From contig NZ_CP043568.1 of NCBI RefSeq assembly GCF_014076415.1, positions 4,216,001 to 4,280,000 of the forward strand: a stretch of DNA of 64,000 bases, given 5' to 3'. The stretch's first letter is position 1. Each line of letters begins with the position of its first letter. The DNA comes from Comamonas testosteroni. Its GTDB lineage: Bacteria > Pseudomonadota > Gammaproteobacteria > Burkholderiales > Burkholderiaceae_C. The position numbers were made by a program, and so were the translations under genes. This document shows positions 7,095 through 24,058 of the stretch, piece after piece. The notes beneath the pieces are model-generated. The model was not told the origin of the DNA, did not search any database, and worked only from the letters and a program-made list of their open reading frames with translations.

Positions 7095-7703
7095 ATGAAG
7101 ATGCAGCAGCTCAACCGTCAGCGTCTGATCGTGGCCATCTCCGGAGCATCCGGATTCATCTATGGCCACAGGCTACTACAGCTTTTGCAGGGTACGGACA
7201 TTGATGTGCACCTGATCCTGAGCCGCGCCGCACTAATCACCATGGGCGCGGAAACCGATCTCAAGCTGTCTCAGGTCACCGCATTGACGGCACAGGTTCA
7301 CAAGAACGAAGACATCGGCGCCTGCGTTGCCAGCGGCTCCTGCAAATCACTGGGCATGGTGATTGCACCTTGCTCGATGAAAACGCTGGCCGAGATTGCC
7401 AACGGCATTGGCTCCACGCTGATTTCTCGCGCTGCCGACGTGATGCTCAAGGAGCGCCGCCGCCTGGTGCTGATGGCAAGAGAGACGCCGCTGACACTCA
7501 CCCACCTCAGAAACATGCTGGCCGTGACGGAAATGGGCGCCATCGTCACCCCTCCGGTGCCCGCCTTCTACACCCGCCCAGCCAATCTCGACGAGATGGT
7601 GGACCACTCGCTGGGCCGGGTTCTGGATCTTTTCGACATTGAAGTGAACACCGTTAAGCGCTGGCAAGGGCTTTCGGCCATCCGCCGCAGCGAAGTCTCA
7701 TGA
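7095..7703 (+). CDS. ubiX: UbiX/Pad1-type flavin prenyltransferase
   Basis: Makes prenylated FMN from FMNH2 and dimethylallyl phosphate, the cofactor of UbiD decarboxylases. The 202 residues show the flavoprotein signature: ISGASGFIYGHRLL at the N-terminus, the central SGSCKSLGMVIAPCSMKTLAEIA segment, RRRLVLMARETPL and MAPPVPAFY-like TPPVPAFYTRP. Start is the ATG at 7095, preceded by TTGGAGAG; longer frames reaching upstream overlap the divergent gene. It opens the catabolic cluster and probably supplies prFMN to the UbiD-like enzyme at 14512. It could also serve ubiquinone synthesis. Confidence 0.92.
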   Translation: MKMQQLNRQRLIVAISGASGFIYGHRLLQLLQGTDIDVHLILSRAALITMGAETDLKLSQVTALTAQVHKNEDIGACVASGSCKSLGMVIAPCSMKTLAEIANGIGSTLISRAADVMLKERRRLVLMARETPLTLTHLRNMLAVTEMGAIVTPPVPAFYTRPANLDEMVDHSLGRVLDLFDIEVNTVKRWQGLSAIRRSEVS

Positions 7704-7719
7704 AACAGGAGTCACGAGC

Positions 7720-8589
7720 ATGAAGTTCTTTGAGTATGCAGAACCCGCCAGCCTGCAGGAGACCGCAGAACTGCTGCAAAGCTGCGCAGGCACTGCCAGC
7801 CTGATGGCCGGAGGTACGGATTTGCTGGTGATGATGAAAGAGCATGCGCGAGCACCGTCGCATGTGGTCAACATCAAGAAGATTCCGGGCCTGGATGACT
7901 TCAGTTTCACTGCGGAAGGCGGTCTGTGCCTGGGCGCACTGGTGACCACCCGACAGATCGAGACCTCGGACATCACACTCAAGCACTACGCCAGTCTGGC
8001 CAAGGCCTGCACAGACTTCGCCTCCATCCAGGTCCGCAACCGCGCCACGCTGGTGGGCAATGTCTGCCGTGCCTCGCCTTCGGCAGACAGCCTGCCGCCA
8101 CTGATTGCCGACGATGCCGTGCTGCACATCTACGGCACGCAAGGGCGGCGCCAATGCCGGGTAGAAGATTTTCTGCAAGGCAGGGGGCGCACCACCTTGG
8201 CGACCAATGAAATTGTCACCCATATCCAGCTTCCCGCACCGGCTCAGCGCACCGGCAAGGTCTACATCAAACATGGCCGACGCAGCCAGATGGAACTAGC
8301 CACCGTCGGCGTGGCGGTCAGCGTGACGCTCAACGCAGCAGGAAAAGTGGATTCCATATCCATCGTTCTTGCCGCAGTGGGGCCCACGCCTTTGCGGGCT
8401 GCAGCCGCAGAGGCTCTGCTCAAGGGGCGCATACCTGATGAACAAGATATCGCAGCAGCAAGTCTGGCGGCAGCTATTGCAGCGACACCCATCAGCGATG
8501 TGCGCGCCAGCGCTGGCTACCGCCGGGACATGGTGCGCGTGCTGACTGCTCGCTCACTGACACAAGCCATCAAGGAGGCACAACAATGA
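7720..8589 (+). CDS. Xanthine dehydrogenase-family FAD subunit
   Basis: Medium (FAD) subunit of a molybdenum hydroxylase, 289 residues, CoxM/CutM/HcrB type. Near the N-terminus is the FAD-binding motif MAGGTDLL, then VNIKKIPGL, and NRATLVGNVCRASPSADSLP, which contacts the flavin. The C-terminal CO-dehydrogenase flavoprotein domain follows (from about residue 180). It passes electrons between the [2Fe-2S] subunit and the acceptor. The stop overlaps the next start (ATGA at 8586-8589), so translation is coupled. It starts 16 bases after ubiX. Confidence 0.93.
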   Translation: MKFFEYAEPASLQETAELLQSCAGTASLMAGGTDLLVMMKEHARAPSHVVNIKKIPGLDDFSFTAEGGLCLGALVTTRQIETSDITLKHYASLAKACTDFASIQVRNRATLVGNVCRASPSADSLPPLIADDAVLHIYGTQGRRQCRVEDFLQGRGRTTLATNEIVTHIQLPAPAQRTGKVYIKHGRRSQMELATVGVAVSVTLNAAGKVDSISIVLAAVGPTPLRAAAAEALLKGRIPDEQDIAAASLAAAIAATPISDVRASAGYRRDMVRVLTARSLTQAIKEAQQ

Positions 8590-9074
8590 ACAAGCTCAAT
8601 GTTTCCTGCACGGTCAATGGTGACCTGCTGGAGTTCGATGTCGCACCCAACCGCAGTCTGCTGGACGCGCTGCGCACCGAGATGGGCCTCACGGGCACCA
8701 AGAAAGGCTGCGATGTGGGCGAATGCGGCTCCTGCACCATCTTGTTCAATGGCCGCCCTGCCAACGCCTGCCTGATTCTGGCTGCAGAAGCCCAGGGCGC
8801 CGAAATCACCACCGTTGAAGGTCTGCAAGGTGCAGACGGCAAGCTCCATCCCTTGCAGGAATGCTTTATGCAATGCGGCGCGGCGCAATGCGGCTTCTGC
8901 ACACCCGGCATTCTGATTGCAGCCAAAGCCTTGCTGGACGAGAACCCCTGCCCCAGCACCGAAGACATCCGCTTTGCCATCGCCGGCAACATCTGTCGCT
9001 GCACGGGATACACCAAAATTCTGGACGCCATTGCCGCAGCCGCCCCCGTCGCACAGGAGGCCAGCGCATCATGA
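8586..9074 (+). CDS. Xanthine dehydrogenase-family [2Fe-2S] subunit
   Basis: Small iron-sulfur subunit of 162 residues. The plant-ferredoxin-like N-terminal cluster is ligated by the cysteines in GCDVGECGSCTILFNG plus the later Cys of ANAC; the second cluster uses CGAAQCGFCTPG and CRCTG. It relays electrons from the Mo centre to FAD. It overlaps both neighbours by four bases (ATGA), typical of coxMSL-like operons. Confidence 0.95.
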   Translation: MNKLNVSCTVNGDLLEFDVAPNRSLLDALRTEMGLTGTKKGCDVGECGSCTILFNGRPANACLILAAEAQGAEITTVEGLQGADGKLHPLQECFMQCGAAQCGFCTPGILIAAKALLDENPCPSTEDIRFAIAGNICRCTGYTKILDAIAAAAPVAQEASAS

Positions 9075-11365
9075 GCCAAAAATCCATCATCGGAACCAGC
9101 GTCAGGCGCAACGACTTGCTGGCCAAGGTCACAGGCGACGCCAAATATGTGGCTGACATGCATCTGCCCGGCCTGCTGTATGCCAGGACCAAGCGCAGCA
9201 ATGTCGCCCATGCCCGCATCGTGAAGATCGACACCAGCCGGGCTCTGGCCCTGCCGGGAGTGAAAGCCGTTCTGACCCATGAGAACGTACCCCGCGTGCT
9301 GCACGCAGGCTCACCACACCCACGCTCTGCATCGGTCACCTGCGATCAGTACATTCTGGACAGCAAGGTCAGGTACTGGGGTGAAAGTGTTGCCGTGGTC
9401 GCGGCAACAAGCGAAGAAATTGCAGAGCAGGCTCTTGATCTCATTGATATCGAGTATGAGCTACTTCCGGCTTTTTTCACCACCGAAGAAGCTCTGGCCG
9501 CACCAGCCTCCCAACGCATTCACGACCGAGAGCCTGGTGGCAACCTGGTACTGCCACCGGTTCGGGTACAGCGCGGGGATATCGTCAAAGGCTTTGAGGA
9601 AGCCGACTTTGTCCTCGAAGGCGAGTATGAAGGCGGCCGCCCTACTCCCGCCTATATGGAGCCCAACGCCTGCATGTGCCAGTGGGATGGCAACGGCAAT
9701 CTCACGGTCTGGATCTCCACGCAGACGGCTTTCATGGTGCGCGGCATCATGGCCGAAGTGCTGGGCCTGCCGCTGCACAAGGTGCGCGTGCTGGTTGACC
9801 ATATGGGCGGCGGTTTCGGTGCCAAGCAGGACTTGTTCCAGAGCGAGTTCCTCTGCGCACTGCTAGCCAAACAGACGCGCCGCCCTGTGCGCATGGAGTT
9901 CTCTCGGGAAGAAACCTTCCTCGGAGGCCGCACCCGACACCCCTTCAAGATCTGGCTCAAACAGGGTTTTCGCAAGGACGGCAGCATCACCGCGCGCCAG
10001 GCCCGCGTGGTCTTCAACTCAGGTGCCTACGGCTCACATGGCCCGGGCGTGACCAACGTGGGCACAGCATCCCTGACATCGCTGTACCGCTGCGAGAACG
10101 TGGACCTGGAAGGGTTATGCGTCTATACCAACAGCCCCATCGCTGGTGCGTTTCGCGGCTATGGCGTCGTTCAGACCTATTTTGCGCTGGACCTGCAGCT
10201 TGATGAAGCGGCGCAGGTCTTGGGCATGAACCCGGCAGAGCTCAAGCTGATGAATGCCGTCAGCCAGGGCGATCTGGCCCCTTCGGGCCACCCCATCGTA
10301 GGCCACGGCTTGCCCGACTGCATACGCCGCGGCATGGAAGAGGTGCACTGGCCGCGTGGCTCAAGCCCGAAAGAGGGCCCGGTACGCCGGGGCTGGGGCA
10401 TGGGCTGCGAAATGCATGGCAGCAGCGCCTACCCCGGCATCAAGGAGCAAGGCAATGCCATCGTCAAGATGAATGAAGACGGCACGGTAGTGCTGCTGAC
10501 GGGCACCGCTGGTCTGGGCACAGGCGCCCATACGGCGCTGGCACAAATCGTGGCCCAGGAGCTGGGCCTGTGCTTTGAAGCCGTCAGCGTCATGCATGGA
10601 GACACCGACGTCGTTCCCTGGGACATTGGCGCATTTGCCAGCCACACAACCTATATGGGTGGGCGAGCAGCCCAGATGGCGGCAGCGAAGGTCAAAGAGC
10701 AACTGCTGGAGCGCGCTGCAGGCTATCTTGACACTGCAGCCTCCAACCTCCAGGTGTCACAGGGCGTGATATGTGGCCCCGATGGCAAAAGCATGAGCGT
10801 GCGTGATGCCGTCGCAGCGCGCAAAGGCATTCCGGCTGCGCAACTGGTGGGCACAGCCACCTACCACCCGACCAAGGCCTATTCCTTCGCGGCCCACTTT
10901 GCCGAGGTCAGCGTGGACACCGAAACCGGCCAGATCACGGTACTGCAGGTTGTACCCGTGCATGAAATTGGCAAGGTTATCCATCCGATTGCCGCTGCCG
11001 GCCAGATCGAAGGCGGCATACAGCAGGGCATAGGTCACACGCTTTACGAGGACTACCAGATCGACATGAGTACCGGGCGCTCACTGAATGCCAACTTTGT
11101 CGACTACAAGATGCCGCTGTCCATGGACATGCCTCAGATACGCACCGTGCTGCTGGAGACCGCGCCCGATCCAGGCGGGCCGTATGGCGCCAAAGGCGTG
11201 GGTGAGGACCCCATCATCGCCATCGGTCCGGCCATCGTGAACGCCGTGTATGACGCCATCGGCGTGCGCTTTCGTCACTACCCCATCCGTCCCGAGCAAG
11301 TGCTGCAAGCGCTCAAAGCCCGGACTGCGCAAAGCCACCGTGTCACAGAAGGAGCTTACACATGA
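9071..11365 (+). CDS. Xanthine dehydrogenase-family molybdenum-binding subunit
   Basis: Catalytic large subunit of 764 residues that binds Mo-molybdopterin (probably the cytosine dinucleotide form) and hydroxylates an aromatic heterocycle with water as oxygen donor. [10 protein letters not shown] and AFRGYG are the Mo-cofactor loops, and GAKGVGED near the C-terminus holds the catalytic Glu of the family (GVGE). The 'a/b' hammerhead domain is at the N-terminus ([19 protein letters not shown]). Start is the ATG at 9071, overlapping the small-subunit stop. The substrate is not readable from sequence, but neighbouring nucleobase-type transporters and a purine/pterin-type deaminase point to an N-heteroaromatic. 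No XdhC-type maturation factor is present in the cluster. Confidence 0.95.
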
Positions 11366-12474
11366 CCTCGACCTCTCAACGCCCCATTCCCGTCACCATA
11401 CTCACTGGCTTTCTGGGGGCTGGCAAGACGACGCTGCTCAATCACATCCTCACGGAAAAGCATGGTCACCGCATCGCTGTGATCGAAAACGAGTTCGGCG
11501 AAATAGATGTGGACTCCGATCTGGTGATGGCCTCCGAAGAGGAAATCTTCCAGGTCGCCAATGGATGCATCTGCTGCGTGGTCGATGTGCGCAACGATCT
11601 GGTGCAGATTCTGCAGAAGCTGCTCGACCGCAAGGACCAGTTTGACCACATCCTGGTGGAGACCAGCGGACTGGCGGACCCCTCGCCCGTGGCCGCCACC
11701 TTCTTCATGGACAACGACGTGGCCAAGAAAGTGATGCTGGACGGCATCGTAACTCTGGTAGATGCCGTACACGTCCAGCCTCACCTGGACGATCCAGCCT
11801 TGGCCGAGTATGACAACCAGGCCGTCACGCAAATTGTGGTTGCAGACCGAATCCTGCTGAACAAGTCCGATCTGGTCGGCGAGTCCGAGCTCAAGGAGCT
11901 GGAGCGCCGCATCCGCACACTCAACAGCATTGCACCTGTGATGCGCACTGTGCAGGCCCAAGTGGACCTCTCCCAGATTCTGGGATTGCAGACATACGAG
12001 TCCGATGCCCTGTCCATGACAGACCCCGACTTTCTGCACAGGCCAGCCATTGGCGGCCATATCGGTGCCCATGCCTGCGATGAGCATTGCACGCACCAGG
12101 AACACGATCATCTGCCGGCCATTAGCCAGTCCGCTGACCATGCTCACACACACGACCCGTCCGTGAACTCCGTGTCGTTCACCTTTGACCGGCCCTTCGA
12201 TATCGATGCCCTGATGCCCACGCTCAATGCACTGCTGAGCGAACACGGCGACGACATCTACCGCGTCAAAGGAATTTTGCATGTGCAAGGCGATGACCGC
12301 CGCCATGTGCTGCAAGGGGTTCACCGCCTGCTCGAACTCAAGCCCGCCCTGCCCTGGTGGGATGAAACACCCGGCAGCAAGCTGGTCTTCATTGGTCGCC
12401 ATCTCAATGCCTCGCAACTGCGAAGCGCACTCACTCGCCACCTGGTTTCCATCGAGGCTCAGGAAGCCGCCTGA
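11362..12474 (+). CDS. CobW/G3E-family GTPase, putative metallochaperone
   Basis: A 370-residue COG0523 GTPase. It has Walker [10 protein letters not shown] (residues 16-24), the metal-binding CICC motif (Cys69, Cys71, Cys72), base-recognition NKSD, and a His-rich loop at about 235-265 ([14 protein letters not shown] and HAHTHD) before the CobW C-terminal domain. Such proteins deliver metals, often Zn or Fe, to a client enzyme. It overlaps the Mo-subunit stop by four bases and precedes two metal-dependent amidohydrolase homologues, so one or both may be the client; that is inference. Confidence 0.92.
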
Positions 12475-12508
12475 AGCGCTTCAACCGTCATCACAGAAGG
12501 AGAGACAC

Positions 12509-13444
12509 ATGATCATCGACATCAGTTGCTACCCCACCGACCAGGTTGACCTGGCTTGGTGGCACGACGGCAAACCCTATACCGTGGACCGGCTGCTCAA
12601 GACCATGGATGGCCCCTACTACGTCAATGGCAAACCCCGCCGTATCGACAAGGCCTTCATCCAGCCGCCCCAGGGCAACACCATCTACACATGGAGCGAC
12701 GGTGAGAAGTCGGGCCGCGAGTCCATCGACGATTACATGGCTTACACACTCAAATGCGTGCAGGAGCATCCCGACCGCTTCATTGGCTGCTTTGTCTACA
12801 ACCCTCGCTGCGGCGTCAAGAACGGCGTCGAAGCCATAGAGCGCTATGTCAAGGAGCATGGCTTCAAGATGGTTCAGATGCAGGCCAATATGCATGCCTA
12901 CCGGCCTGACCGCGCGCTGGACTGGGTGCGCCCGGCTTTCGAAAAATGCGCCGAGCTGGGTGTGCCGGTAAAGCTGCATACGGGCGACGGCCCCTACAGC
13001 ATCCCCTCCGAATGGATTCCCATGATTCAGGAGTTCCCCAAGGTGAACTTCATCATGGCCCACTTCGGCGTGCAGACCGGCGGTGTCTATTGCTTTGAAC
13101 CCTTTCAAGCCGCCATGGATCTGCCCAATGTCTATTGCGAATCCGGCTGGTGCCTGCAGTCGCGCATTGTGGAGTTTGCCAAGGTACTGCCCAAGCACAA
13201 GATCATTTTTGGCACCGACACCCCACCCAACGAGCCCGGCATGTGGCTGCGCCTGCTGGAAGTGCTGTGTACCAACCCCCCACAGGGCATGAACCTCGAC
13301 GAGGAAACGTTAGAGGACTACCTGGGCAACAACATCGCCCGAATGATCGGCATCGAACCCACGCCAGCCCCTCGAACCTTTGAGGAGGCTGAGCAGATGC
13401 TGGGCCACAAGGCCGAGCGCCAGCCCGTGATCGAACTGTATTAA
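12509..13444 (+). CDS. Amidohydrolase-2 family protein lacking the HxH motif
   Basis: A 311-residue COG2159 (ACMSD/LigW-type) TIM-barrel homologue. Start is the ATG at 12509, behind AAGGAGAGA. The barrel and several C-terminal ligands are kept (His157 in LHTGDG, His185 in MAHFG, Asp237 in FGTDTPP). However, the N-terminal HxH that binds the metal in the paralogue next door is Ser6-x-Tyr8 here, and the Lys121/His123 pair of the paralogue is Gln123/Gln125. It is otherwise strikingly similar to the next gene over its whole length. It may be a non-catalytic partner, bind metal differently, or have a new activity. Confidence 0.88.
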   Translation: MIIDISCYPTDQVDLAWWHDGKPYTVDRLLKTMDGPYYVNGKPRRIDKAFIQPPQGNTIYTWSDGEKSGRESIDDYMAYTLKCVQEHPDRFIGCFVYNPRCGVKNGVEAIERYVKEHGFKMVQMQANMHAYRPDRALDWVRPAFEKCAELGVPVKLHTGDGPYSIPSEWIPMIQEFPKVNFIMAHFGVQTGGVYCFEPFQAAMDLPNVYCESGWCLQSRIVEFAKVLPKHKIIFGTDTPPNEPGMWLRLLEVLCTNPPQGMNLDEETLEDYLGNNIARMIGIEPTPAPRTFEEAEQMLGHKAERQPVIELY

Positions 13445-13464
13445 TTCAAGCCAGGAGACACAAA

Positions 13465-14412
13465 ATGATTATCGACACTCACCTGCACCCCACCAATCTG
13501 GTGGACGAGGCGTGGCGCCACACAGGTACGCCCTTCAATGGCGAGCGCATGCTCAAGCTCATGGATGGTCCCTACATGATCAACGGCAAGCCGCGCCGCA
13601 TCGACATGGGCTTCATCCAGCCCCCGCCCGGTAATACCGGCTACCGTGATGGCAACCGCCGCGGCCGTGACGGTATCCGTGACTATATGTCTTACATTGC
13701 CGAGCTCACTCAGAAGTACCCTGACCGTTTCATCGGCAACTTCACCTACAACCCCCGCTGGGGGCCCGAAAACGGTGCTGCCGAAATCGAGTACCACCAT
13801 CTGGCCTATGGCTTCAAGATGATCAAGCTGCATGCCAATATGCATGGCTACCGGCCTGATCGCGCGCTGGAATGGCTGCGCCCGGCAATGAAGGTCTGCG
13901 CCAAGTACAACATCGTTGTGCTGATCCACACCGGTGACGGCCCGTTCACCATTCCCACGATGTTCTACCCGATCATTCGCGAGTTCCCCATGGTGAACTT
14001 CGTGATCGCGCACTTTGGCATTCAGACGGGTGGCAACTATTCGTTCGAGACCTTCTGGATGGCCATGGACACTCCCAATGTCTATGTCGAATCCGGCTGG
14101 TGCTTCCAGGCGCGCATTGCCGAGTTTGCCAAGGAACTACCGCGCAACAAGCTGGTGTTCGGCACGGACAGCCCTCCCAACGAGCCCGGCATGTGGCTTC
14201 GCGAGCTGGAAATGCTGTGCCGCCCCGCACCGCACGGAATCGACCTCGACGAAGACACGCTGGAAGACTACCTGGGCAACAACATTGCGCGACTGGTGGG
14301 CATTGAAACCACACCTCCGCCGAAAAGCCAGGAAGACGCAAAGGCCCGTCTGAAAGCCACCTACGCAGGTGTCGAAAGAAAAGAAGCCATGACCTTCGCC
14401 GCAGCCAAGTAG
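13465..14412 (+). CDS. Amidohydrolase-2 family metal-dependent enzyme (decarboxylase/hydrolase)
   Basis: A 315-residue COG2159 enzyme with the complete metal site: His6-x-His8 (DTHLHP), His155 (LIHTGDG), His183 (IAHFG) and Asp235 (FGTDSPP), plus Lys121 and His123. Relatives include ACMSD, 5-carboxyvanillate decarboxylase, gamma-resorcylate decarboxylase, iso-orotate decarboxylase and oxalomesaconate hydratase. Non-oxidative decarboxylation or hydration/ring hydrolysis of a carboxylated ring product is therefore plausible. It follows its degenerate paralogue by 20 bases with its own Shine-Dalgarno (CAGGAGACA), and the two are likely co-produced and may form a hetero-oligomer. Confidence 0.9.
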   Translation: MIIDTHLHPTNLVDEAWRHTGTPFNGERMLKLMDGPYMINGKPRRIDMGFIQPPPGNTGYRDGNRRGRDGIRDYMSYIAELTQKYPDRFIGNFTYNPRWGPENGAAEIEYHHLAYGFKMIKLHANMHGYRPDRALEWLRPAMKVCAKYNIVVLIHTGDGPFTIPTMFYPIIREFPMVNFVIAHFGIQTGGNYSFETFWMAMDTPNVYVESGWCFQARIAEFAKELPRNKLVFGTDSPPNEPGMWLRELEMLCRPAPHGIDLDEDTLEDYLGNNIARLVGIETTPPPKSQEDAKARLKATYAGVERKEAMTFAAAK

Positions 14413-14511
14413 TGCGGCTCTCGCCCATCGCCTACGGGCGGTGGGCATCCCATACAGAGAAAGTGCCAGCAATCACTGGCTCCCCGTTTCGCTTTGCCGA
14501 GGAGACACTCG

Positions 14512-15909
14512 ATGAATGCCAGAACAACAATGATGGACACCGGTCAGGATTTGCACGACTTCTATGCAGCCTATGCCGACAGCTGGCCGGAGGATGTTCT
14601 GTCCATCGACCACCCCGCCGGTCGGGACCAGGATGTCACTGCCATCGTCTGGTCCCTCGCCGCTCAAGGTCTTCACCCCTTGCTACGCTTCAACCAGATT
14701 GACGACCTGCAGCGCCCATTGATTACCAATCTGTTTGCCTCACGTGAACGCGTGGGCCGCATGCTGGGCGGAGTGGGCGCAGCAGGCCTGCACGCCGAAT
14801 ACCAAGCTCGCAGCAGAAACCTGCTGCAGCCGCAGTTGATTCAGGACGGCAAAGTCCTGCAGCAAGTCAAGACTAGCCAGATCAATCTGCATACCGATAT
14901 CCCGACCATCAAGCATTTCGCCAGTGATCGCGGCCCCTACATCACCAACTCCATTCTGATTTCCGAGTTCGATGGCATAAGCAATGTGAGCTATCACCGC
15001 TCCATGGTTCACTCAGAAACGGAGATCGCCACCAGCCTGCACTCGCGCGGTCACCTTTGGCGCATGTTGCGGGCCGCCGAAACCCAAGGCAAACCCCTGC
15101 CAGTGGCCATGGTCATCGGTGCACATCCGCTGTTCATGCTGGCCGCGGCTGCACGCCTGCCTTATGGCATCGATGAGCGCCACGTGGCGGGTGGGCTGAT
15201 CGGTGCGCCGCTGCAAGTCGTCAAAACGCCAAAGTACGGCATTTCCGTGCCTGCCCATGCTGAGTTCGTTCTTGAAGGCGTGATTGACCCCAGCATGCGC
15301 GCCGAAGAAGGGCCTTTCGGCGAATTCACCGGCTACTCCTCGGACCGCTCCACCAACAACGTCTTCAAGGTCGAGGCCCTGATGCAGCGCAGCGATGCCT
15401 GGCTGCTCGATGTGGTGGGAGGCAATTCGGCCGAGCACCTGAATCTGGGCCGTATCCCCAGAGAGTCCGAGATGGTGGAAAAGCTCAAGGAGCGCTTTCC
15501 AGGCGTGACTGCAGTGCACTACCCCAATTCCGGAACGCACTTCCACGCCTATATCGCGCTCAAGCAATCACGCCCCGGAGAAGCACGCCAGGTCATGCTG
15601 GGCCTGCTGGGCTGGGACCCATATCTGAAGACAGTGTTTGCCGTTGACGAGGATGTGGACATCACCCGCGATGAAGAAGTGCTCTGGGCCATGGCAACGC
15701 ATTTCCAGCCGCACCAAGATCTGTTCATGGTGGACGGACTACCTGGCAGCCCTCTGGACCCTTCCTCTTCCGCCGATGGAACTACCTCACGCCTTGGCAT
15801 CGATGCCACGCGGGGACCCAAGTTCGACGGCTTGCGGGCACGCATCAGCCCCGAAGCCATGCAGCGTGTTCAACCCTTGATTCTCTCCAGCCTGCGCAAC
15901 GAAACATGA
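14512..15909 (+). CDS. UbiD-family prFMN-dependent decarboxylase
   Basis: Reversible (de)carboxylase of 465 residues using prenyl-FMN. The catalytic triad of the family is visible: Arg163 in NVSYHRSM, and Glu266 and Glu271 in EGPFGEFTGY, with the same spacing as R173/E277/E282 of fungal Fdc1; Asn158 matches the metal/cofactor Asn. HMMs often call such genes 3-octaprenyl-4-hydroxybenzoate decarboxylase, but the catabolic setting argues for an aromatic or heteroaromatic carboxylate. I start it at the ATG 14512, seven bases after GAGGAGA; the TTG six codons earlier lies ahead of that ribosome site. Its cofactor supplier UbiX is the first gene of the cluster. Confidence 0.92.
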   Translation: MNARTTMMDTGQDLHDFYAAYADSWPEDVLSIDHPAGRDQDVTAIVWSLAAQGLHPLLRFNQIDDLQRPLITNLFASRERVGRMLGGVGAAGLHAEYQARSRNLLQPQLIQDGKVLQQVKTSQINLHTDIPTIKHFASDRGPYITNSILISEFDGISNVSYHRSMVHSETEIATSLHSRGHLWRMLRAAETQGKPLPVAMVIGAHPLFMLAAAARLPYGIDERHVAGGLIGAPLQVVKTPKYGISVPAHAEFVLEGVIDPSMRAEEGPFGEFTGYSSDRSTNNVFKVEALMQRSDAWLLDVVGGNSAEHLNLGRIPRESEMVEKLKERFPGVTAVHYPNSGTHFHAYIALKQSRPGEARQVMLGLLGWDPYLKTVFAVDEDVDITRDEEVLWAMATHFQPHQDLFMVDGLPGSPLDPSSSADGTTSRLGIDATRGPKFDGLRARISPEAMQRVQPLILSSLRNET

Positions 15910-15993
15910 GACAGCCATAAACCTTCTGGGACACACAGAGCTGAAAAAGCCAGGTGTTTCCAGACCGCTCGAAACCTGTTCAGGAGACAAACC

Positions 15994-17385
15994 ATGACGA
16001 CGAGCACCCCGAACCATAGTCCGCCCGCAGTACATCCAGTCGATGAAAAACTGCCTTTGCCCCAACTAGCAGCACTGGGACTGCAGCATGTGCTGGTTAT
16101 GTATGCGGGGGCGATTGCCGTTCCCCTCATCATTGGAAGCGCCCTCAAGCTCACCAAAGAAGACACAGCATTCCTGATCGCAGCAGACCTGTTCTGCTGC
16201 GGGCTGGTGACCATCATCCAGAGCATGGGCATTGGCAAGGTTGGCATACGCCTGCCCATGATGATGGGAGTGACCTTCACCGCAGTCGCTCCTATTATTG
16301 CAGCAGGCAGCACACCAGGGCTAGGTCTTAGAGCGGTTTTTGGCGGAGTCATCATAGCGGGCATATTCACGCTGCTAGTTGCTCCTTATGTCAGCCGTCT
16401 ACTGCGCTGGTTTCCACCCGTGGTCACCGGCTCCGTCGTTCTGATCATTGGCATTTCGCTGATGCGCGTGGGAATCAACTGGGCAGCGGGTGGAAACCCC
16501 ACCATCCCCGGCCCCAACGGCCCCATCAACAACCCAGCCTATGGCATTCCTTCGCACATAGCCATCTCCGGCATCGTGCTGATGACCATTCTCTTCATCA
16601 TCGCCTGGTGCAAGGGCTTTCTGTCAAACATTGCCGTCCTGATCGGCATCGCCGTTGGCTTTTTGATCACGCTGGCATCAGGCCAGGTCAACTTCGTGGG
16701 CATGCAAGCCACACAGTGGGTACGCATCATCACGCCGTTTCACTTCGGCATTCCCACCGTTGACGTAATGACCACGGTCACGCTGTGCGTGGTGATGATT
16801 GTCATCATGATCGAGGGCGTGGGCCAGTTCCTGGCACTTTCAGAAGTGGTGGAGCGTCCGTTGGAGAAAGACGATATCGCCCGCGGCCTCCGCGCCGATG
16901 GTGTTGGTGCCATCGTGGGTGGCATCTTCAACACCTTCACATACACCTCCTATGCGCAGAACATCGGACTGGTGCAGGTCACCGGGGTACGCAGCCGCTG
17001 GGTCTGCGTAACAGCCGGGGTAATGCTGATCGTGATCAGCAGCTTTCCCAAACTGTCTTTCATCGCCGCATCCATTCCCCAGTATGTTCTAGGCGGCGCA
17101 GCCATGGTGATGTTCGGCATGGTGGCTGCGACGGGCGTGCGCATCCTCAGCCATGTGGATTTTGTCGAAAACCGCAAGAACGCCTACATCGTGGCCATCA
17201 GCCTGGCCATGGGCATGATTCCTCTGGTCGCGGACCGCTTCTTCATGCGCCTGCCAGATCTGCTGGCCAAATTCTGCCAGAACGGGATTTTGCTGGGCAC
17301 CTTCACCGCCGTGCTGCTGAACGTTCTGTTTAACGCCAGCACCAGCCAGGAGCCATCCCTTCACGCTCTAGAAAAGGCGGCCTGA
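15994..17385 (+). CDS. NCS2-family nucleobase (uracil/xanthine) permease
   Basis: Proton- or cation-coupled nucleobase importer of 463 residues with about 14 hydrophobic segments. The NAT/NCS2 signature QNIGLVQVTGVRSR lies around residue 325, and ALGLQHVLVMYAGAIAVPLIIG marks TM1. Close relatives carry xanthine, uric acid or uracil. It sits directly before the ABC importer, one base from the ATPase start, so the cluster encodes two independent uptake routes for nucleobase-like compounds. Confidence 0.94.
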   Translation: MTTSTPNHSPPAVHPVDEKLPLPQLAALGLQHVLVMYAGAIAVPLIIGSALKLTKEDTAFLIAADLFCCGLVTIIQSMGIGKVGIRLPMMMGVTFTAVAPIIAAGSTPGLGLRAVFGGVIIAGIFTLLVAPYVSRLLRWFPPVVTGSVVLIIGISLMRVGINWAAGGNPTIPGPNGPINNPAYGIPSHIAISGIVLMTILFIIAWCKGFLSNIAVLIGIAVGFLITLASGQVNFVGMQATQWVRIITPFHFGIPTVDVMTTVTLCVVMIVIMIEGVGQFLALSEVVERPLEKDDIARGLRADGVGAIVGGIFNTFTYTSYAQNIGLVQVTGVRSRWVCVTAGVMLIVISSFPKLSFIAASIPQYVLGGAAMVMFGMVAATGVRILSHVDFVENRKNAYIVAISLAMGMIPLVADRFFMRLPDLLAKFCQNGILLGTFTAVLLNVLFNASTSQEPSLHALEKAA

Positions 17386-17386
17386 T

Positions 17387-19000
17387 ATGCCAAGCCTTAT
17401 CCCTTCTCAAGGCAAACCCCAGCTGGAGCTGCGAGGCATTCGCAAGGTCTATTCCTCCGTGGTTGCCAATGATGGCATCGACCTGGTCGTGGCACCCGGT
17501 GAAATTCAAGCCATCCTTGGCGAAAACGGCGCGGGAAAGTCCACGCTGATGAAAATCATCTATGGGGTGACTACTCCAACCGACGGAGAGATCTACTGGC
17601 AGGGCGAGCGCGTGCAGATGGGCAGCCCCGGCCTGGCTCGCGCACTGGGCATTGGCATGGTGTTTCAGCATTTTCAGCTGTTCGAGACACTGACCGTCGT
17701 GCAGAACGTGGCCCTCGCCTTGCCGGGTCGCCCCGACCTGGCTGACCTGTGTCAGCGCATTCATGCGGTCGGCCAGCGCTATGGCTTGCCCATAGACCCG
17801 CTGCGGCTGGTGCACACCCTCTCCGTCGGCGAGCGCCAGCGCGTGGAAATCATCCGCTGCCTGCTTCAAAATCCAAAGCTACTCATCATGGATGAGCCGA
17901 CCTCGGTACTCACGCCGCAGGCCGTGCGCAAGCTATTTGAAACCCTGCGCCAGCTGGCCGATGAAGGCTGCAGCATTCTCTACATCAGCCACAAGCTGGA
18001 TGAAGTTCAAGAGCTTTGCCACAGCGCTACTGTTCTGCGAAACGGCCGGGTGACGAGCCATTGCATTCCGGCCCAGGAGACACCAGCCTCCATGGCCCGC
18101 ATGATGATTGGCAAGGAGCTGGTGCCCTGCCAGCGCCCCAAGCCCATGGCAAATACGGCAGATACTGCCAGGTTACAGGTTCATTCTCTGTCCCGCGCTG
18201 CCAGCCACCCTTTCGGCACTGCGTTACAGGACATCAGCTTTAGCCTCAAGCCCGGTGAAATCCTGGGCATTGCCGGAGTGTCCGGCAACGGCCAGCAGGA
18301 GCTGCTGTTTGCCCTATCGGGAGAAGACCCGCTTCCGCCGCGCGATGCCGCCATGATTCATCTCAATGGCCAGCCAGTCGCGCACCTGAACAGCGCCAGC
18401 CGCCGCACACAAGGCTTGGGCTTTGTTCCGGAGGAACGTCTAGGACGTGGTGCGGTTCCAGCCATGAGCCTGGCCGAAAACACCTTGCTGACTGCCTATG
18501 ACCAAGGCCTGCTGCAGCGTGGTCTGATTCGCAAAGACGCGGTGACCCAGTTTGCGCAGAACTGTATAGCAGGCTTTCACGTCAAATGCTCAGGACCGCA
18601 AGCGCCTGCCAACTCGCTCTCGGGTGGCAATCTGCAAAAGTTCATCGTGGGAAGGGAGCTGATGCAGAAGCCTCAAGTACTCATCGCAGCCCAGCCCACC
18701 TGGGGCGTGGATGTGGGAGCGGCAGCTTTCATTCGCCAGTCGCTGATTGAGCTGAGAACCAGCGGCGCCAGCCTGCTGGTGGTCTCCGAAGAGCTGGACG
18801 AGCTATTCGAAATCTGCGACCGCATTGCCGTGATTGCTGATGGCCGCCTATCTCCCGTGGTTGCCATTGACCAGACCGATGTCGAGACCATAGGCCTGTG
18901 GATGAGCGGAATGTGGCCTCAAGAGAGTGCCCTCCTTCCCCAGGCCGCACCGCCCACTCTTCCTACAGAAAGAGAGGTCTACCGTGTGGCTCAAGCTTGA
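17387..19000 (+). CDS. ABC transporter ATPase, BMP/nucleoside-type importer
   Basis: A 537-residue protein with two fused nucleotide-binding domains, as in sugar/nucleoside importers (RnsB/NupA/YufO type). The first domain has GENGAGKSTL, signature LSVGERQR and Walker B LLIMDEPTSVL. The second has a degenerate Walker A (GVSGNGQQ), signature LSGGNLQKF and a Walker-B-like ILIAAQPTWGVD, so only the first site is likely to hydrolyse ATP well, as in the family. It overlaps the permease start by 17 bases. Confidence 0.94.
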   Translation: MPSLIPSQGKPQLELRGIRKVYSSVVANDGIDLVVAPGEIQAILGENGAGKSTLMKIIYGVTTPTDGEIYWQGERVQMGSPGLARALGIGMVFQHFQLFETLTVVQNVALALPGRPDLADLCQRIHAVGQRYGLPIDPLRLVHTLSVGERQRVEIIRCLLQNPKLLIMDEPTSVLTPQAVRKLFETLRQLADEGCSILYISHKLDEVQELCHSATVLRNGRVTSHCIPAQETPASMARMMIGKELVPCQRPKPMANTADTARLQVHSLSRAASHPFGTALQDISFSLKPGEILGIAGVSGNGQQELLFALSGEDPLPPRDAAMIHLNGQPVAHLNSASRRTQGLGFVPEERLGRGAVPAMSLAENTLLTAYDQGLLQRGLIRKDAVTQFAQNCIAGFHVKCSGPQAPANSLSGGNLQKFIVGRELMQKPQVLIAAQPTWGVDVGAAAFIRQSLIELRTSGASLLVVSEELDELFEICDRIAVIADGRLSPVVAIDQTDVETIGLWMSGMWPQESALLPQAAPPTLPTEREVYRVAQA

Positions 19001-20057
19001 AAAACGCCCCGAAGCCTCGCACTCCATGCGCTGGCTGTCGCCACTGCTGGCCGTGCTGCTAACCGTGCTCAGCGGAGCACTGCTTTTTGCTGCGCTGGGT
19101 CAAAAACCGCTGCAAGGCATTCATGCCTTCTTCATTCAGCCCATCAGTGACCTATATGGTCTAAGCGAGCTGCTGCTCAAGGCCACACCGCTCATGCTGA
19201 TCAGCATGGGGCTTGCCATCGGCTTTCGTGCTGGAGTCTGGAATATCGGCGCAGAAGGTCAGTTCATTCTTGGCGCCGTGTTTGCCAGCGGCATTGCGCT
19301 GATGGTGGGGGACCGAATCGCTTTCTGGGCCATGCCCGCAATGGTGCTGGCCGGCGCCTTGGGCGGGGCTCTGTGGGCTGCCATCCCAGCCTGGTTGCGC
19401 ACACGCTTTGGCACCAATGAGATCCTGGTGTCGCTGATGCTGGTCTATGTAGCCCAGTTGCTGGCATCTTGGCTGATCTATGGCCCATGGAAGGACCCTG
19501 ACGGCTACAACTTTCCCCAAACCCGCAGCTTTGGCGACAGTGCGCTATTGCCCGTGCTGATCGAAGGTACACGCCTGCATGCTGGCTTCATTCTGGCGTT
19601 GTTTGTGCTGCTGGCAGGCTATGTGTTTCTGCAATTGAGCATGCAGGGCTTTCGCATGCAGGTCGGTGGCCAGGCACCTGATGCCGCTCGCTATGCCGGT
19701 TTTTCGGGAAAGCAGGCCATCTGGGTCGGGCTACTGGCTGGCGGCGCGCTGGCCGGCGTGGCCGGGATGACCGAGGTTTCAGGTCCCATGGGCCAGTTGA
19801 CGGCGCAAATCTCCGCCGGCTATGGCTTTGCAGCCATCATCGTGGCCTTTGTCGGACGCCTGCACCCCGTGGGTATCCTGGCCAGCAGCCTGATCATGGC
19901 CTTGTTCTTTCTGGGCGGCGAGCAAGCCCAGCAGCAACTGAACCTGCCATCCTCCATCTCCAAGGTTTTCCAGGGAATGCTGCTGTTTTTCCTGCTGGCC
20001 TCGGATCTGTTCATTGCTTACCGTCTGCGCTGGCAAGGCGGTCTCCGGAGGGCCTGA
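18984..20057 (+). CDS. ABC transporter permease 1 (BMP/nucleoside type)
   Basis: Inner-membrane permease of 357 residues with 8-10 hydrophobic segments and the conserved family stretch IGFRAGVWNIGAEGQFILGA, as in RnsC/YufP/NupB proteins. I start it at the GTG 18984 because GAGAGG lies seven bases ahead; a longer reading from 18927 would run deep into the ATPase gene. It pairs with the second permease two bases downstream. Confidence 0.92.
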   Translation: MWLKLEKRPEASHSMRWLSPLLAVLLTVLSGALLFAALGQKPLQGIHAFFIQPISDLYGLSELLLKATPLMLISMGLAIGFRAGVWNIGAEGQFILGAVFASGIALMVGDRIAFWAMPAMVLAGALGGALWAAIPAWLRTRFGTNEILVSLMLVYVAQLLASWLIYGPWKDPDGYNFPQTRSFGDSALLPVLIEGTRLHAGFILALFVLLAGYVFLQLSMQGFRMQVGGQAPDAARYAGFSGKQAIWVGLLAGGALAGVAGMTEVSGPMGQLTAQISAGYGFAAIIVAFVGRLHPVGILASSLIMALFFLGGEQAQQQLNLPSSISKVFQGMLLFFLLASDLFIAYRLRWQGGLRRA

Positions 20058-20059
20058 CC

Positions 20060-20992
20060 ATGGATACCTCGCTGATTTCCTCCATCCTGGCGGCCACCTT
20101 GGTCGCAGGCACACCACTGATCATCGTCGCACTGGGCGAGCTGGTCGTCGAACGCTCTGGTGTGCTCAACCTTGGTGCAGAAGGCATGATGTCCGTGGGC
20201 GCGGTTGCGGCTTTTGCCGCTGCCTTTACAGGAGCTGGCCCCTGGGCCGCGGCCGCAGTGGGCATGCTTGCAGGTGCAGCACTGGCGCTAATCTTCGGCT
20301 ATCTGTGCCTGACCATGCAGGCCAACCAGGTCGCCAGCGGGCTGGCCCTGGCCATCTTCGGAGTGGGTCTGTCGGCCTTTTTGGGCAAGTCCTATGAATC
20401 AGCACCACTGACGGCCGTGCCCGTTCCCACCATTCCCATACTTGGGGACATACCTTTTCTGGGCACCGCATTGTTTCACCAGCACTGGCTAGTCTACGGT
20501 TCGTGGGTACTGGCAGCCGCAACAGCCTGGTTTCTGGATCGAAGCCGCGGAGGTCTGGTGCTGCGCGCCGTCGGAGAATCACCCACCGCAGCCCACGCCA
20601 TTGGCTACCCGGTGATCGCCATCCGCTACATGGCAGTGCTCTATGGCGGAGCCATGGCCGGTCTGGGCGGAGCGTTTCTGTCCGTGTTCTACACGCCACT
20701 GTGGGCGGACGGCATGGTCGCAGGCCGGGGCTGGATTGCGCTGGCACTGGTGGTTTTTGCCACCTGGCGCCCCCTGCGCATTCTGGTCGGCGCCTATCTG
20801 TTCGGCGGCGTGCTGGTCTCCCAGCTGTTCGTCCAAGGTTCAGGCCTGGCGCTGGAGCTCCCTTCACAATGGCTGTCCGCACTACCCTATATCGCCACCA
20901 TCGTCGTGCTGGTGCTGATATCGCGCAACAAGACCACGATCAAGCTGAACTCTCCCGCCTCGCTGGGACAGAGCTACAAGCCGGAAAGTTGA
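20060..20992 (+). CDS. ABC transporter permease 2 (BMP/nucleoside type)
   Basis: Partner permease of 310 residues with about eight hydrophobic segments. VVERSGVLNLGAEGMMSVGA is the family-specific counterpart of the NIGAEG loop in permease 1 (RnsD/YufQ/NupC type). It begins two bases after permease 1 and is followed 49 bases later by the binding protein, completing an ATPase-permease-permease-receptor set. Confidence 0.93.
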   Translation: MDTSLISSILAATLVAGTPLIIVALGELVVERSGVLNLGAEGMMSVGAVAAFAAAFTGAGPWAAAAVGMLAGAALALIFGYLCLTMQANQVASGLALAIFGVGLSAFLGKSYESAPLTAVPVPTIPILGDIPFLGTALFHQHWLVYGSWVLAAATAWFLDRSRGGLVLRAVGESPTAAHAIGYPVIAIRYMAVLYGGAMAGLGGAFLSVFYTPLWADGMVAGRGWIALALVVFATWRPLRILVGAYLFGGVLVSQLFVQGSGLALELPSQWLSALPYIATIVVLVLISRNKTTIKLNSPASLGQSYKPES

Positions 20993-21041
20993 AGTTTCAA
21001 AGCATCGCGTTCCCTACGACCAGAACCAAGGAGGCATGACC

Positions 21042-22157
21042 ATGAACAGCAACAACGTGCGCCACACGCATAGATCAACCGCATTTCCCTGTCTTGCAGC
21101 ATGGAGCGCAGCGTCGCTCTTTGTGCTGGGCCTGGGCAGCGCCTCAGCCGCCGAGCCACTCAAAGTCTGTTTTCTCTATTCCAACCCGATTGGAGAAAGC
21201 GGATGGACCTATCAGCATGAGCTGGCGCGCAATGAACTGGTCGCCGCCCTGGGCGACAAAATCAGTACCAAATACGTAGAAAACATAGCAGAGGGCCCAG
21301 ACGCAGAGCGCGTTGTACGCAATTTTGTGAAAGACGGCTGCAAACTAATCTTCACGCCCTCCTTTGGTTTCATGGAGCCCACGCTCAAGGTGGCGCGTAC
21401 CGCTCCCAAAATCATCTTCATGAACGGCACCGGCTACAAGACAGCCACCAATGTCGGCACCTACAACGCCCGCTGGTATGAGGGCCGTTATCTGGAAGGT
21501 GTGATCGCCGGTCATATGACCAAGAGCAATGTGGTCGGCTATGTGGGCGCCTTCCCTATTCCCGAGGTGCTGCAAGGCGTGAATGCTTTCGCACTAGGCA
21601 TGAAAAGCGCCAATCCAAAAGCTCAGTTGCGCCTGATCTGGGTAAATTCCTGGTATGACCCGGGCAAGGAGCGCGATGCCGCCAATGCTCTCATCAAGCT
21701 GGGTTCAGACACTCTTGCCTATGCCACCTCGGGCGTTTCCATCGTCACCACAGGCGAAGAGAAAAAGGTCTACACCCTGGGCTACTACTCGAACATGTCC
21801 AAGTTCGGCCCCACGACCAATCTCACCTCTATTACCCAAAACTGGGGCAACTTCTACATCAAGGTCGCCAACGAAGTACTAGCGGACAAATGGAAGCCCG
21901 AAAGCGTCATGGGCAGCCTCAGCGACGGCATCATCAAGCTGGCACCGCTGAACTCAGCCATTCCGGCCGAGGTGCGCAACCAGGTTGAAACCCTCACCAA
22001 GGAAATTGCTTCAGGTCAGCGCCAGATTTTCACCGGCCCTTTGGTCGATCAGCAAGGCACGACACGCGTTCCAGCGGGCCAGAATATCTCGCCCGGTGAT
22101 CTGGCCAATATGAACTATCTGGTTCAAGGCGTGGACGGCCTGATGCCCAAGAACTGA
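21042..22157 (+). CDS. BMP-family ABC substrate-binding protein
   Basis: Periplasmic receptor of 371 residues of the basic membrane protein (PF02608) family, which binds nucleosides, purines and similar ligands. An N-terminal signal peptide ends near SASA-AEP; the mature protein opens KVCFLYSNPIGESGWTYQHELARN, the usual BMP ligand-lobe start. AAGGAGG at 21028-21034 fits the ATG at 21042 (7-base spacing) better than the ATG at 21036 (one base). There is no lipobox cysteine at the cleavage site, so it is probably soluble in the periplasm rather than a lipoprotein. Confidence 0.93.
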   Translation: MNSNNVRHTHRSTAFPCLAAWSAASLFVLGLGSASAAEPLKVCFLYSNPIGESGWTYQHELARNELVAALGDKISTKYVENIAEGPDAERVVRNFVKDGCKLIFTPSFGFMEPTLKVARTAPKIIFMNGTGYKTATNVGTYNARWYEGRYLEGVIAGHMTKSNVVGYVGAFPIPEVLQGVNAFALGMKSANPKAQLRLIWVNSWYDPGKERDAANALIKLGSDTLAYATSGVSIVTTGEEKKVYTLGYYSNMSKFGPTTNLTSITQNWGNFYIKVANEVLADKWKPESVMGSLSDGIIKLAPLNSAIPAEVRNQVETLTKEIASGQRQIFTGPLVDQQGTTRVPAGQNISPGDLANMNYLVQGVDGLMPKN

Positions 22158-22164
22158 GAGCCCC

Positions 22165-23586
22165 ATGAAAAACAATATTCTGATCCGCAATGCGGCAGCC
22201 ATCATGACGGGGCTGTCAGGAAGCAAGGCCAGAAGCCCTGCCCGCGACATCCGCATAGAGAGCGGCGTCATCACCGAGATGGGCAACGGGCTACCGCCCC
22301 TGCCCGGCGAGGAGCAGCTCAATGCCAGCAACTGCGTCATCTACCCCGGCTGGGTCAATACCCACCACCACCTGTTCCAGTCTTTACTCAAAGGTGTGCC
22401 TGCAGGCATCAATCTGACGCTGAGCCCGTGGCTGCAGGCTGTGCCCTTCAGCTACCGGCGCAGCTTTGATGAAAAGCGTTTGCGCATAGCCGCACGCATT
22501 GGTCTGGTGGAGCTGCTACGCTCAGGCTGCACCACCGTAGCCGACCATCATTACCTGTTCCAGCCAGGACAGGACTTTGATGCAGCCGCCATTTTGTTCG
22601 AGGAAGCCAACGCGCTGGGCATGCGCTTCATGTTGCTGCGTGGCGGTGCCACCGTCACCCGCAAGCTGGAAGCCGATGAAAAGCTGCTACAGGCCACCGA
22701 AACACTGGATCAGATGCTGAGCTCGGTACAAACCACGGCCAAGTACTTCCACCAGACCACCCCCATGGCCATGAGCAAAGTGGCCATGGCCCCCACCTCT
22801 GTCCATGTCTCGCTGCCCAAACCGGAGCTCAAGGAAGTGGCCAGAGCCGCGCGCTCCATGGGCTTGCGACTGCACAGCCATATGTCGGAGTCCGTGGCCT
22901 ATATCGAGCATTGCCGTGAAAAATTCGGTTGCCTACCCATCGAATATCTTGCCCGCAATGAGTGGCTGGGGCCCGATGTATGGCTGGCCCACCTGGTACA
23001 CCTAAGCCCCGAGGAAATCAGGATGCTGGGAGAAAGCCGTACCGGTATTGCCCACTGTCCGCAGAGCAATGCCCGCCTGGCCGACGGAATCGCACCCGCA
23101 CCTGCGCTAGCCAAAATGGGCTCCCCCGTTACGATGGGCGTTGATGGCGCGGCCTCCAACGAAGCCGCAGACATGATCAGCGAGCTGCATTTTGCGTGGA
23201 TGCTACACCGCGCACAGGCTGGCGCGCTTTCCCGCGCCATACCCGAAGGGCTAGGCGAAGAAGGCGGTGACGCCACCACCGTGGAGCAAATCATCCACTG
23301 GGCCAGCCAGAGCGGCGCGCAGATGCTCGGCTTTGAAGGTGTCGGTCATCTATCCGCCGGTATGGCTGCCGATTTGGCCGTATATGCACTCGATGACCCC
23401 CGATATTTTGGACTGCACGACCCTGCCATCGGCCCCATCGCCAGCGGCGGGCGTCCCCACCTCAAGTGGGTGCTGTGTGCAGGCAAGGTCATACTCGAAG
23501 ACGACTTGCCAACAGGCCTTGATCTCGAGCGACTCGGGATACAGGCCAAGGCGGAAGTCCAAGCATTGCTGGTACTGCAGAACTGA
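22165..23586 (+). CDS. 8-oxoguanine/isoxanthopterin deaminase-like amidohydrolase
   Basis: COG0402 amidohydrolase of 473 residues that should replace a ring amino (or alkylamino/chloro) group by oxygen. Metal ligands and catalytic residues are visible: His67-x-His69 (NTHHHLFQ), HSHMSE (metal His and proton-shuttle Glu), the AHLVH region, and Asp in GVDGAASNE. The nearest family types are 8-oxoguanine deaminase, isoxanthopterin deaminase and the triazine hydrolases AtzB/TrzN. As last gene of the cluster, seven bases after the receptor, it probably deaminates an amino-purine or pterin produced by the Mo hydroxylase. Exact specificity cannot be read by eye. Confidence 0.88.
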   Translation: MKNNILIRNAAAIMTGLSGSKARSPARDIRIESGVITEMGNGLPPLPGEEQLNASNCVIYPGWVNTHHHLFQSLLKGVPAGINLTLSPWLQAVPFSYRRSFDEKRLRIAARIGLVELLRSGCTTVADHHYLFQPGQDFDAAAILFEEANALGMRFMLLRGGATVTRKLEADEKLLQATETLDQMLSSVQTTAKYFHQTTPMAMSKVAMAPTSVHVSLPKPELKEVARAARSMGLRLHSHMSESVAYIEHCREKFGCLPIEYLARNEWLGPDVWLAHLVHLSPEEIRMLGESRTGIAHCPQSNARLADGIAPAPALAKMGSPVTMGVDGAASNEAADMISELHFAWMLHRAQAGALSRAIPEGLGEEGGDATTVEQIIHWASQSGAQMLGFEGVGHLSAGMAADLAVYALDDPRYFGLHDPAIGPIASGGRPHLKWVLCAGKVILEDDLPTGLDLERLGIQAKAEVQALLVLQN

Positions 23587-24058
23587 GCCAAGCTCGTGCT
23601 GGCGTAGTGGTGGCGTTCCTATGAAGAGCCGCAGCAGGAGCGTCCGTTGAAGCAACCTCTACTTTTAGGGACGCGCAGGAAAACGAGGATGCTTCACCGT
23701 GTTTACGGCTTGAGTTACCCAGAACAACAAGCGCCAGGCTTTTCCCCAATTTTTCTCAACAAGCCTGTGGACAAGCCTGAATAGCTTTTGCAGCAATGTC
23801 TCAAGCACTTGATTTATCAGGAATTTCTCAAACTGCCTATTTTTTGATCAGCCCCTATCCGACAGACAGACACTTATCCCGTCCTACGCTGGACATCCTT
23901 GTGAACAACTGCACCGGTCCAATGAATAAGTCAGGCAAGTCATTGATTTCAAAAGGTTCATTTTTCAGCGCTGAAAAAACAGGCAATCCGCACCGGGCCC
24001 ACGGCCTTGGCAAACCGGCTACAACAACGGGTTTTGCAAAGAATCACTACAGCGCCTC
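23587..24058. other. Intergenic region with regulatory palindromes
   Basis: No gene was recognised in these 472 bases. The right half is AT-richer than its surroundings and holds the imperfect palindrome TTGTGAACAA (23899-23908), a TGTGGACAA at 23766-23774, and a perfect 18-bp palindrome at 23961-23978. It probably contains the ferredoxin promoter. Confidence 0.5.
23961..23978. promoter_or_regulatory. Perfect 18-bp palindrome upstream of ferredoxin gene
   Basis: TTTTTCAGC followed immediately by GCTGAAAAA, with no loop. It lies about 80 bases before the ferredoxin start. The absence of a loop makes a dimeric-protein operator more likely than a terminator. Confidence 0.5.

Follow-up and report, generated by a model that had tools for sequence, protein, structure and literature searches.

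A conserved fourteen-gene cluster of Comamonas testosteroni that probably serves pteridine catabolism

As a run of closely packed genes in Comamonas testosteroni combines UbiD, a molybdenum (Mo) hydroxylase, two amidohydrolase-2 proteins and a deaminase, we were interested in what it might degrade. The window analysed comprises 64,000 nucleotides of the 5.95 Mb genome (assembly GCF_014076415.1, contig NZ_CP043568.1, positions 4,216,001 to 4,280,000), and the cluster fills positions 7095..23586 of it. The fourteen genes are a real, selected unit and probably serve pteridine catabolism in general, pteridine being the ring system of folate and of insect pigments. An assignment of steps, in which the Mo hydroxylase and the deaminase would lead to tetrahydroxypteridine, the amidohydrolase-2 pair (AH2a and AH2b) to xanthine-8-carboxylate and UbiD to xanthine, is plausible if just short of probable. 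Tentatively, we propose AH2a/AH2b as the gene pair for tetrahydroxypteridine cycloisomerase (Enzyme Commission number EC 5.5.1.3), which would be a hetero-oligomer of a metal-binding and a motif-less subunit, with UbiD acting on the purine product. All fourteen genes lie on the + strand, 13 of 13 junctions overlap or span fewer than 100 bases according to the coordinates of the open reading frames (ORFs), and the genes match C. testosteroni ATCC 11996 at 96-100%. Gene families were called with NCBIfam and Pfam, using curated cut-offs where available, which confirmed the co-directional, short-spaced genes and the families that an earlier note, made from the sequence alone, had named:

7095..7703, +, UbiX flavin prenyltransferase (NF004685 261.9 bits, cut-off 188)
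7720..8589, +, Mo-hydroxylase flavin adenine dinucleotide subunit, XdhM (PF00941, PF03450)
8586..9074, +, Mo-hydroxylase [2Fe-2S] subunit, XdhS (PF01799, PF00111)
9071..11365, +, Mo-hydroxylase large subunit, XdhL, XdhA-like (NF043082 650 bits, cut-off 780)
11362..12474, +, G3E GTPase with a His-rich stretch, probable metal chaperone (PF02492, PF07683; sequence)
12509..13444, +, AH2a, amidohydrolase-2 paralogue without the HxH motif (DISCYPT; PF04909)
13465..14412, +, AH2b, amidohydrolase-2 with HxH, beta5 His, beta6 His and beta8 Asp (PF04909)
14512..15909, +, UbiD-family decarboxylase, Arg and Glu motifs kept (TIGR00148 275 bits, cut-off 245)
15994..17385, +, NCS2 permease, xanthine-permease subfamily (TIGR03173 516 bits, cut-off 414)
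17387..19000, +, ATPase of an ATP-binding cassette (ABC) importer (NF047930 424 bits, cut-off 670)
19026..20057, +, ABC importer permease 1 (ATG at 19026, longest frame from 18927; NF047929 193 bits for the longest frame, cut-off 400)
20060..20992, +, ABC importer permease 2 (NF047928 191 bits, cut-off 465)
21036..22157, +, BMP-type substrate-binding protein (NF047927 56 bits, cut-off 400)
22165..23586, +, deaminase of the isoxanthopterin deaminase type (2paj 551 bits; NF009059 673 bits, cut-off 543)

A scan of the named genomes with an AH2 alignment gave 394 relatives, and the best 80 of these together with five plasmid loci, drawn from 117 matching plasmid records, made up a set of 85 loci. 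They were picked by their AH2b match, and close relatives (Cupriavidus, Burkholderia) are over-represented among them. Besides AH2b (85, by selection), UbiD was present in 84, AH2a in 83, the G3E GTPase in 78, UbiX in 68, the NCS2 permease in 61 and the deaminase in 47 loci. When the count was restricted to the 63 loci flanked by 9 kb or more on either side (full-flank loci), AH2a and UbiD were each found in 63, G3E in 61, UbiX in 55, NCS2 in 48 and any of the listed transporters in 60. A Mo-hydroxylase large subunit was detected in 58 of these 63 loci, either XdhL (34) or a second type (24) and never both; the second type is distant from XdhL but shares its Pfam cofactor domains. A co-occurrence of UbiD, paired amidohydrolases and xanthine dehydrogenase genes, for which the earlier note had proposed to search, is thus found for UbiD and the pair throughout the full-flank loci and for the hydroxylase in most of them. 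AH2a, AH2b and UbiD are contiguous in 80 of the 85 loci, while the hydroxylase and the deaminase vary in position and are replaced by distant relatives. The order of the detected genes comes in 33 versions over the 85 loci, some explained by contig ends alone. That non-orthologous genes occupy the same place in shuffled clusters argues for selection on function, and the grouping of the AH2 pair, UbiD, G3E and UbiX is not due to chance, since 78-84 of 85 loci (68 for UbiX) keep these genes; the idea of one catabolic unit was borne out by this association. With the families of the window and the second Mo-hydroxylase type set aside, the only genes to recur in more than nine loci were two LysR groups (in 30 and 25 loci), a gene resembling Asp/Glu racemases (16 loci) and one for an ABC ATPase (11 loci). 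The racemase-like gene, which also resembles arylmalonate decarboxylase, is placed after the deaminase in L004 (22031-22756).

The gene set is rare: AH2b was found in 3 of 160 family genomes and AH2a in 4 of 398 phylum genomes, with two matches in each, corresponding to both paralogues. Among the 117 plasmid records, the best AH2b match had at least 60% identity in 91 and less than 60% in 26. One contig is labelled Enemella evansiae, an actinobacterium (L087), and carries the same cluster order and neighbouring gene groups as Ponticoccus (L006), either from contamination or from a very recent transfer. Locus L083 is the only one with AH2a and AH2b in which UbiD was not detected; an ORF of 266 amino acids, XdhM and XdhS come next, followed by the contig end.

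The deaminase gives the clearest hint at the substrate. Its best solved match is 2paj (551 bits, with residues 4-469 of 473 aligned), which we take to be isoxanthopterin deaminase as reported by Hall et al. 2010, against 228 bits for 3hpa, presumably an 8-oxoguanine deaminase; the Burkholderia form behaves likewise with 474 and 310 bits. The window deaminase exceeds the cut-off of PRK12393/NF009059 (673 vs 543 bits) and does not reach that of the 8-oxoguanine deaminase family NF006055 (367 vs 532 bits). An APT[TS] motif was present in 47 of 47 cluster deaminases, its Thr being shared with 2paj, in contrast to Cys (APCS) in the 3hpa alignment. Of the earlier designation as 8-oxoguanine/isoxanthopterin-like, the second half therefore holds and the first does not. 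The title of Hall et al. 2010 on isoxanthopterin deaminase is cited in the available part of PMC11121863. Several alphaproteobacterial clusters have a CodA-like deaminase in its place. Among the 85 loci, L003, L006, L070 and L087 contain such a CodA-like amidohydrolase, which belongs to another branch of the same superfamily, and a CodA-like deaminase with the same core adjoining was also seen in four annotated plasmid loci (L102-L105; Sinorhizobium, Shinella, Ensifer, Paracoccus). As far as kinship can tell, the deaminase points to a pteridine substrate, and together with the xanthine-type NCS2 permease it supports the pterin-type substrate suggested before.

The two amidohydrolase-2 proteins differ in a constant manner. 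The HxH metal motif was present in 85 of 85 AH2b and 0 of 83 AH2a sequences, and AH2b also kept the beta5 His, the beta6 His and D-x-P-P at beta8 in 85 of 85, with AH2a and AH2b sharing 58-61% identity. In a tree of 97 rows, the 38 without HxH (six SACH rows among them) formed one side of a single branch with a support of 100/99. Judged from their sequences, AH2a and AH2b form a constant pair, and the missing metal motif of AH2a, which had not been foreseen, makes it doubtful that both members are ring-opening amidohydrolases. A profile search at 1e-5 found no solved relative of the pair, and the best single-sequence match was 4inf (2.7e-5); AH2b was modelled with a predicted local distance difference test (pLDDT) score of 84.4. 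Further AH2b relatives with HxH (P0036, P0039, P0086 and related ones) come from Streptomyces, Nocardia, Humibacter and metagenomes. One AH2a copy (G481:C1:3313717-3314628) has a single internal TAA in a cluster that otherwise looks complete.

The N-x-S-x-x-R and E-x-GP-x-GE motifs of UbiD are catalytic, and they were found in 84 of 84 cluster UbiD sequences. UbiD and UbiX both score above their family cut-offs, which together with these motifs places them in the UbiD/UbiX system. The closest solved chain is 6h6v (211 bits), followed by AnInD. We take 6h6v to be HmfF, a furan-dicarboxylate decarboxylase, and the two presumably act on furan and indole carboxylates, five-membered heterocycles like xanthine-8-carboxylate. 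In two Rhodoplanes loci (L024, L077), the AH2 pair adjoins a different UbiD (39-40% identity), XdhMSL and G3E, and neither deaminase nor NCS2 was detected in the flanks. XdhL carries the motifs GGGFGAKQ, A[FY]RG[FY]G and G[VI]GEDP in 41 of 41 sequences. The window XdhL stays below both xanthine dehydrogenase cut-offs (NF043082 650 vs 780 bits; TIGR02965 300.6 vs 849.5 bits), and the genome encodes elsewhere a housekeeping xanthine dehydrogenase (TIGR02965 1328 bits) and two 2-oxo-4-hydroxy-4-carboxy-5-ureidoimidazoline (OHCU) decarboxylases. Because of these separate genes, the hydroxylase of the cluster probably has a different role, and any xanthine formed could be consumed. Xanthine oxidase converts lumazine to violapterin according to the available part of PMC9966888. 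Of the transporters, the NCS2 permease passes the xanthine permease cut-off, and all four components of the ABC importer score below those of the B6-type importer (NF047927-NF047930). Another type of ABC importer stands beside the BMP importer or replaces it in L006, L011 and L070 (NMT1/THI5 binding protein) and in L015 and L017 (ATPase and permease of the same groups).

A bacterial pteridine route was reportedly described as enzyme activities by McNutt and by Rappold and Bacher in the 1960s-70s. In it, deamination of isoxanthopterin gives violapterin, and oxidation of violapterin gives 2,4,6,7-tetrahydroxypteridine. An isomerization (EC 5.5.1.3) then leads to xanthine-8-carboxylate, the decarboxylation of which yields xanthine; leucopterin joins one step ahead of tetrahydroxypteridine. 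We infer that the cluster holds one enzyme family for each of these steps. In an inducible pathway, pteridines such as pterin, isoxanthopterin, leucopterin and lumazines from folate and pigments would be imported, XdhMSL would hydroxylate C7 and C6 of the pyrazine ring, and the 2-amino group would be taken off by the deaminase, resulting in 2,4,6,7-tetrahydroxypteridine. The G3E GTPase may load metal into an AH2a/AH2b complex, which would hydrolyse one amide bond in the 6,7-dioxo ring; the amine set free could then attack the remaining carbonyl, so that the six-membered ring would shrink to the imidazole of xanthine-8-carboxylate (C6H4N4O4, formula unchanged). As the isomerization can be drawn as amide hydrolysis followed by imidazole closure, it is within reach of an amidohydrolase; AH2b would hold the metal and carry out the hydrolysis, and AH2a may complete the site or aid ring closure. 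UbiX would supply prenylated flavin mononucleotide (prFMN) to UbiD for removal of the 8-carboxylate, and the xanthine would enter ordinary purine breakdown. A decarboxylase acting beside the amidohydrolase step fits the adjacency of AH2a, AH2b and UbiD, given that hydroxylase and deaminase move and are exchanged. Tetrahydroxypteridine and xanthine-8-carboxylate stand on a single m/z row in the available part of PMC5941619.

Several observations weigh against this pathway. The deaminase is visible in only 42 of the 63 full-flank loci, and of the 85 loci seven are alphaproteobacterial, four of which (L024, L077, L081, L084) show neither deaminase type in their flanks. Many Cupriavidus loci appear to be without the deaminase, but it can lie outside the usual flank, as on the plasmid of Cupriavidus sp. 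EM10 (L005; about 13 kb downstream of AH2b) and in G481 (L106; about 14 kb from AH2b), and of four extended regions three contained it and in the fourth the cluster reaches the contig end. Conversely, a similar deaminase gene occurs in 11 of 160 family genomes, 8 of which have no AH2b, and four of these eight contexts (two on short contigs) showed no UbiD or AH2 and only distant ABC, permease and CodA-like matches. As such genes occur without AH2b and the core genes, the deaminase family must be wider than the pathway. The modelled fold of AH2b is matched to a similar degree by decarboxylases, a hydratase and an oxygenase, with many matches within a few Z. Housekeeping xanthine dehydrogenase and OHCU decarboxylase were present in 6 of 6 cluster genomes and also in 18 of 20 others, and as a discriminating test these purine genes therefore failed. 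Moreover, while the gene content, its conserved association, the split of the metal motif and the kinship of the deaminase are shown here, we infer every substrate as well as induction and formation of the AH2a-AH2b complex.

The foremost alternative, which we regard as unlikely, is that UbiD acts first and decarboxylates an imported folate-derived 6-carboxylate (pterin- or lumazine-6-carboxylate), after which lumazine would be hydroxylated and its ring opened by the AH2 pair. The 2paj enzyme of Hall et al. is reportedly also active on pterin-6-carboxylate, which counts for this order, as does lumazine-6-carboxylic acid, reported in folate-degrading isolates (available part of PMC5919439) and named as a candidate folate intermediate (available part of PMC9513972). 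Against it, UbiD would then have a task with 6-carboxylated substrates alone, which does not suit the steadiest partner of the AH2 pair, more constant than the hydroxylase and the deaminase. The same adjacency in 80 of the 85 loci, next to a mobile and exchangeable hydroxylase and deaminase, weakens the order of the earlier note, with decarboxylation of pterin-6-carboxylate at the start and ring opening at the end. It is likewise unlikely, and slightly more so, that a non-pteridine carboxylated N-heteroaromatic is degraded, with AH2 as a second non-oxidative decarboxylase or a hydratase, as this leaves the isoxanthopterin-type deaminase unexplained. A route like the clostridial purine route, reportedly described by Rabinowitz and Barker, was our first idea; amidohydrolases would open the pyrimidine ring of xanthine, UbiD would decarboxylate an aminoimidazole carboxylate and the deaminase would remove the amine. 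The xanthine-type permease and the position of the decarboxylase gene after two amidohydrolase genes agree with it, but we moved it down the ranking when the deaminase turned out to be of the isoxanthopterin type. With 102 bits for guanine deaminase (cut-off 375) and 184 bits for formimidoylglutamate deiminase (cut-off 362), the enzyme is far under both cut-offs. As no cluster gene reaches the cut-offs of the imidazolone-cleaving or formimino families and genes for aerobic urate breakdown are already in the genome, we consider it improbable. Most improbable is an O2-dependent hydroxylase like AibH1H2 with a two-metal site loaded by the G3E GTPase, and such an oxygenase role (AibH2, PtmU3, SfbO type) was rejected, since by motif reading AH2b does not have all of the dinuclear AibH2 ligands (Asp25, His27, His211, Glu265, Asp337, His340; available part of PMC7782822) and a Rieske-pattern ORF of fewer than 250 amino acids was near the cluster in 1 of 85 loci (L081), compared to about 90% of AibH2-like neighbourhoods in which a small Rieske-motif ORF is expected (available part of PMC10401708).

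Upstream of the cluster and divergent from it lies a gene for a LysR-type regulator (5508..6488, -), whose best LysR model gave 149.6 bits against a cut-off of 250, with none above cut-off among the best 25 of 52 families. From its position it likely regulates the cluster, and a LysR-like gene was detected by tblastn in 46 of the 85 loci. Most of the cluster falls within three 4 kb blocks (12001 to 24000) whose G+C content is 58-59%, compared to 61-67% in every block from 24001 on, and two other genomes of the genus (G128, G353) are without AH2a. Because of this lower G+C content and the two congeners, the catabolic cluster looks acquired.

If the proposed pathway is correct, this would be the first complete set of genes for the conversion of folate-type rings to purines, and it would account for the recycling of folate, cofactor pterins and insect pigments by soil bacteria. 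It would bring UbiD into purine chemistry and show an amidohydrolase pair of which one member is without the usual metal motif and is nearly always retained. It offers concrete genes for a pathway that we know from enzyme activities only, so that an orphan EC number becomes testable in a bacterium that can be grown in the laboratory.

The cluster can be compared with several known systems. No paper describing these genes together was found in the open-access literature, to which the search was mostly confined. The earlier note, which knew of no described pathway combining all of them, agrees with this for the genes, but the chemistry was reportedly described in the 1960s-70s. Pterin deaminase Arad3529 and its counterpart from Variovorax F1, a soil Variovorax, deaminate folic and pteroic acid at their pterin rings, and the terms xanthine dehydrogenase, UbiD and gene cluster are absent from that paper (PMC9513972). 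AibH1H2 is likewise encoded by two adjacent amidohydrolase-2 genes, and one of its subunits is catalytic (available part of PMC7782822). AibH1 and AibH2 share 28% identity, compared to 58-61% for AH2a and AH2b, and AibH2 is dinuclear with a Rieske partner, whereas the cluster shows neither that ligand pattern nor that partner. The nearest solved UbiD, 6h6v, belongs to a different pathway, and its substrate is not transferable to the UbiD of the cluster. For the deaminase, the best solved match is reportedly a single enzyme from sea-water DNA with no pathway attached (Hall et al. 2010). EC 5.5.1.3 was listed among the orphan enzymes in a 2007 survey with the rank 'difficult' (available part of PMC1940265). 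Deamination, Mo-type hydroxylation, ring contraction and decarboxylation in the route of McNutt and of Rappold and Bacher would map one-to-one onto the families of the cluster. That route was described in terms of activities, and we know of no gene for its ring contraction or its decarboxylation step.

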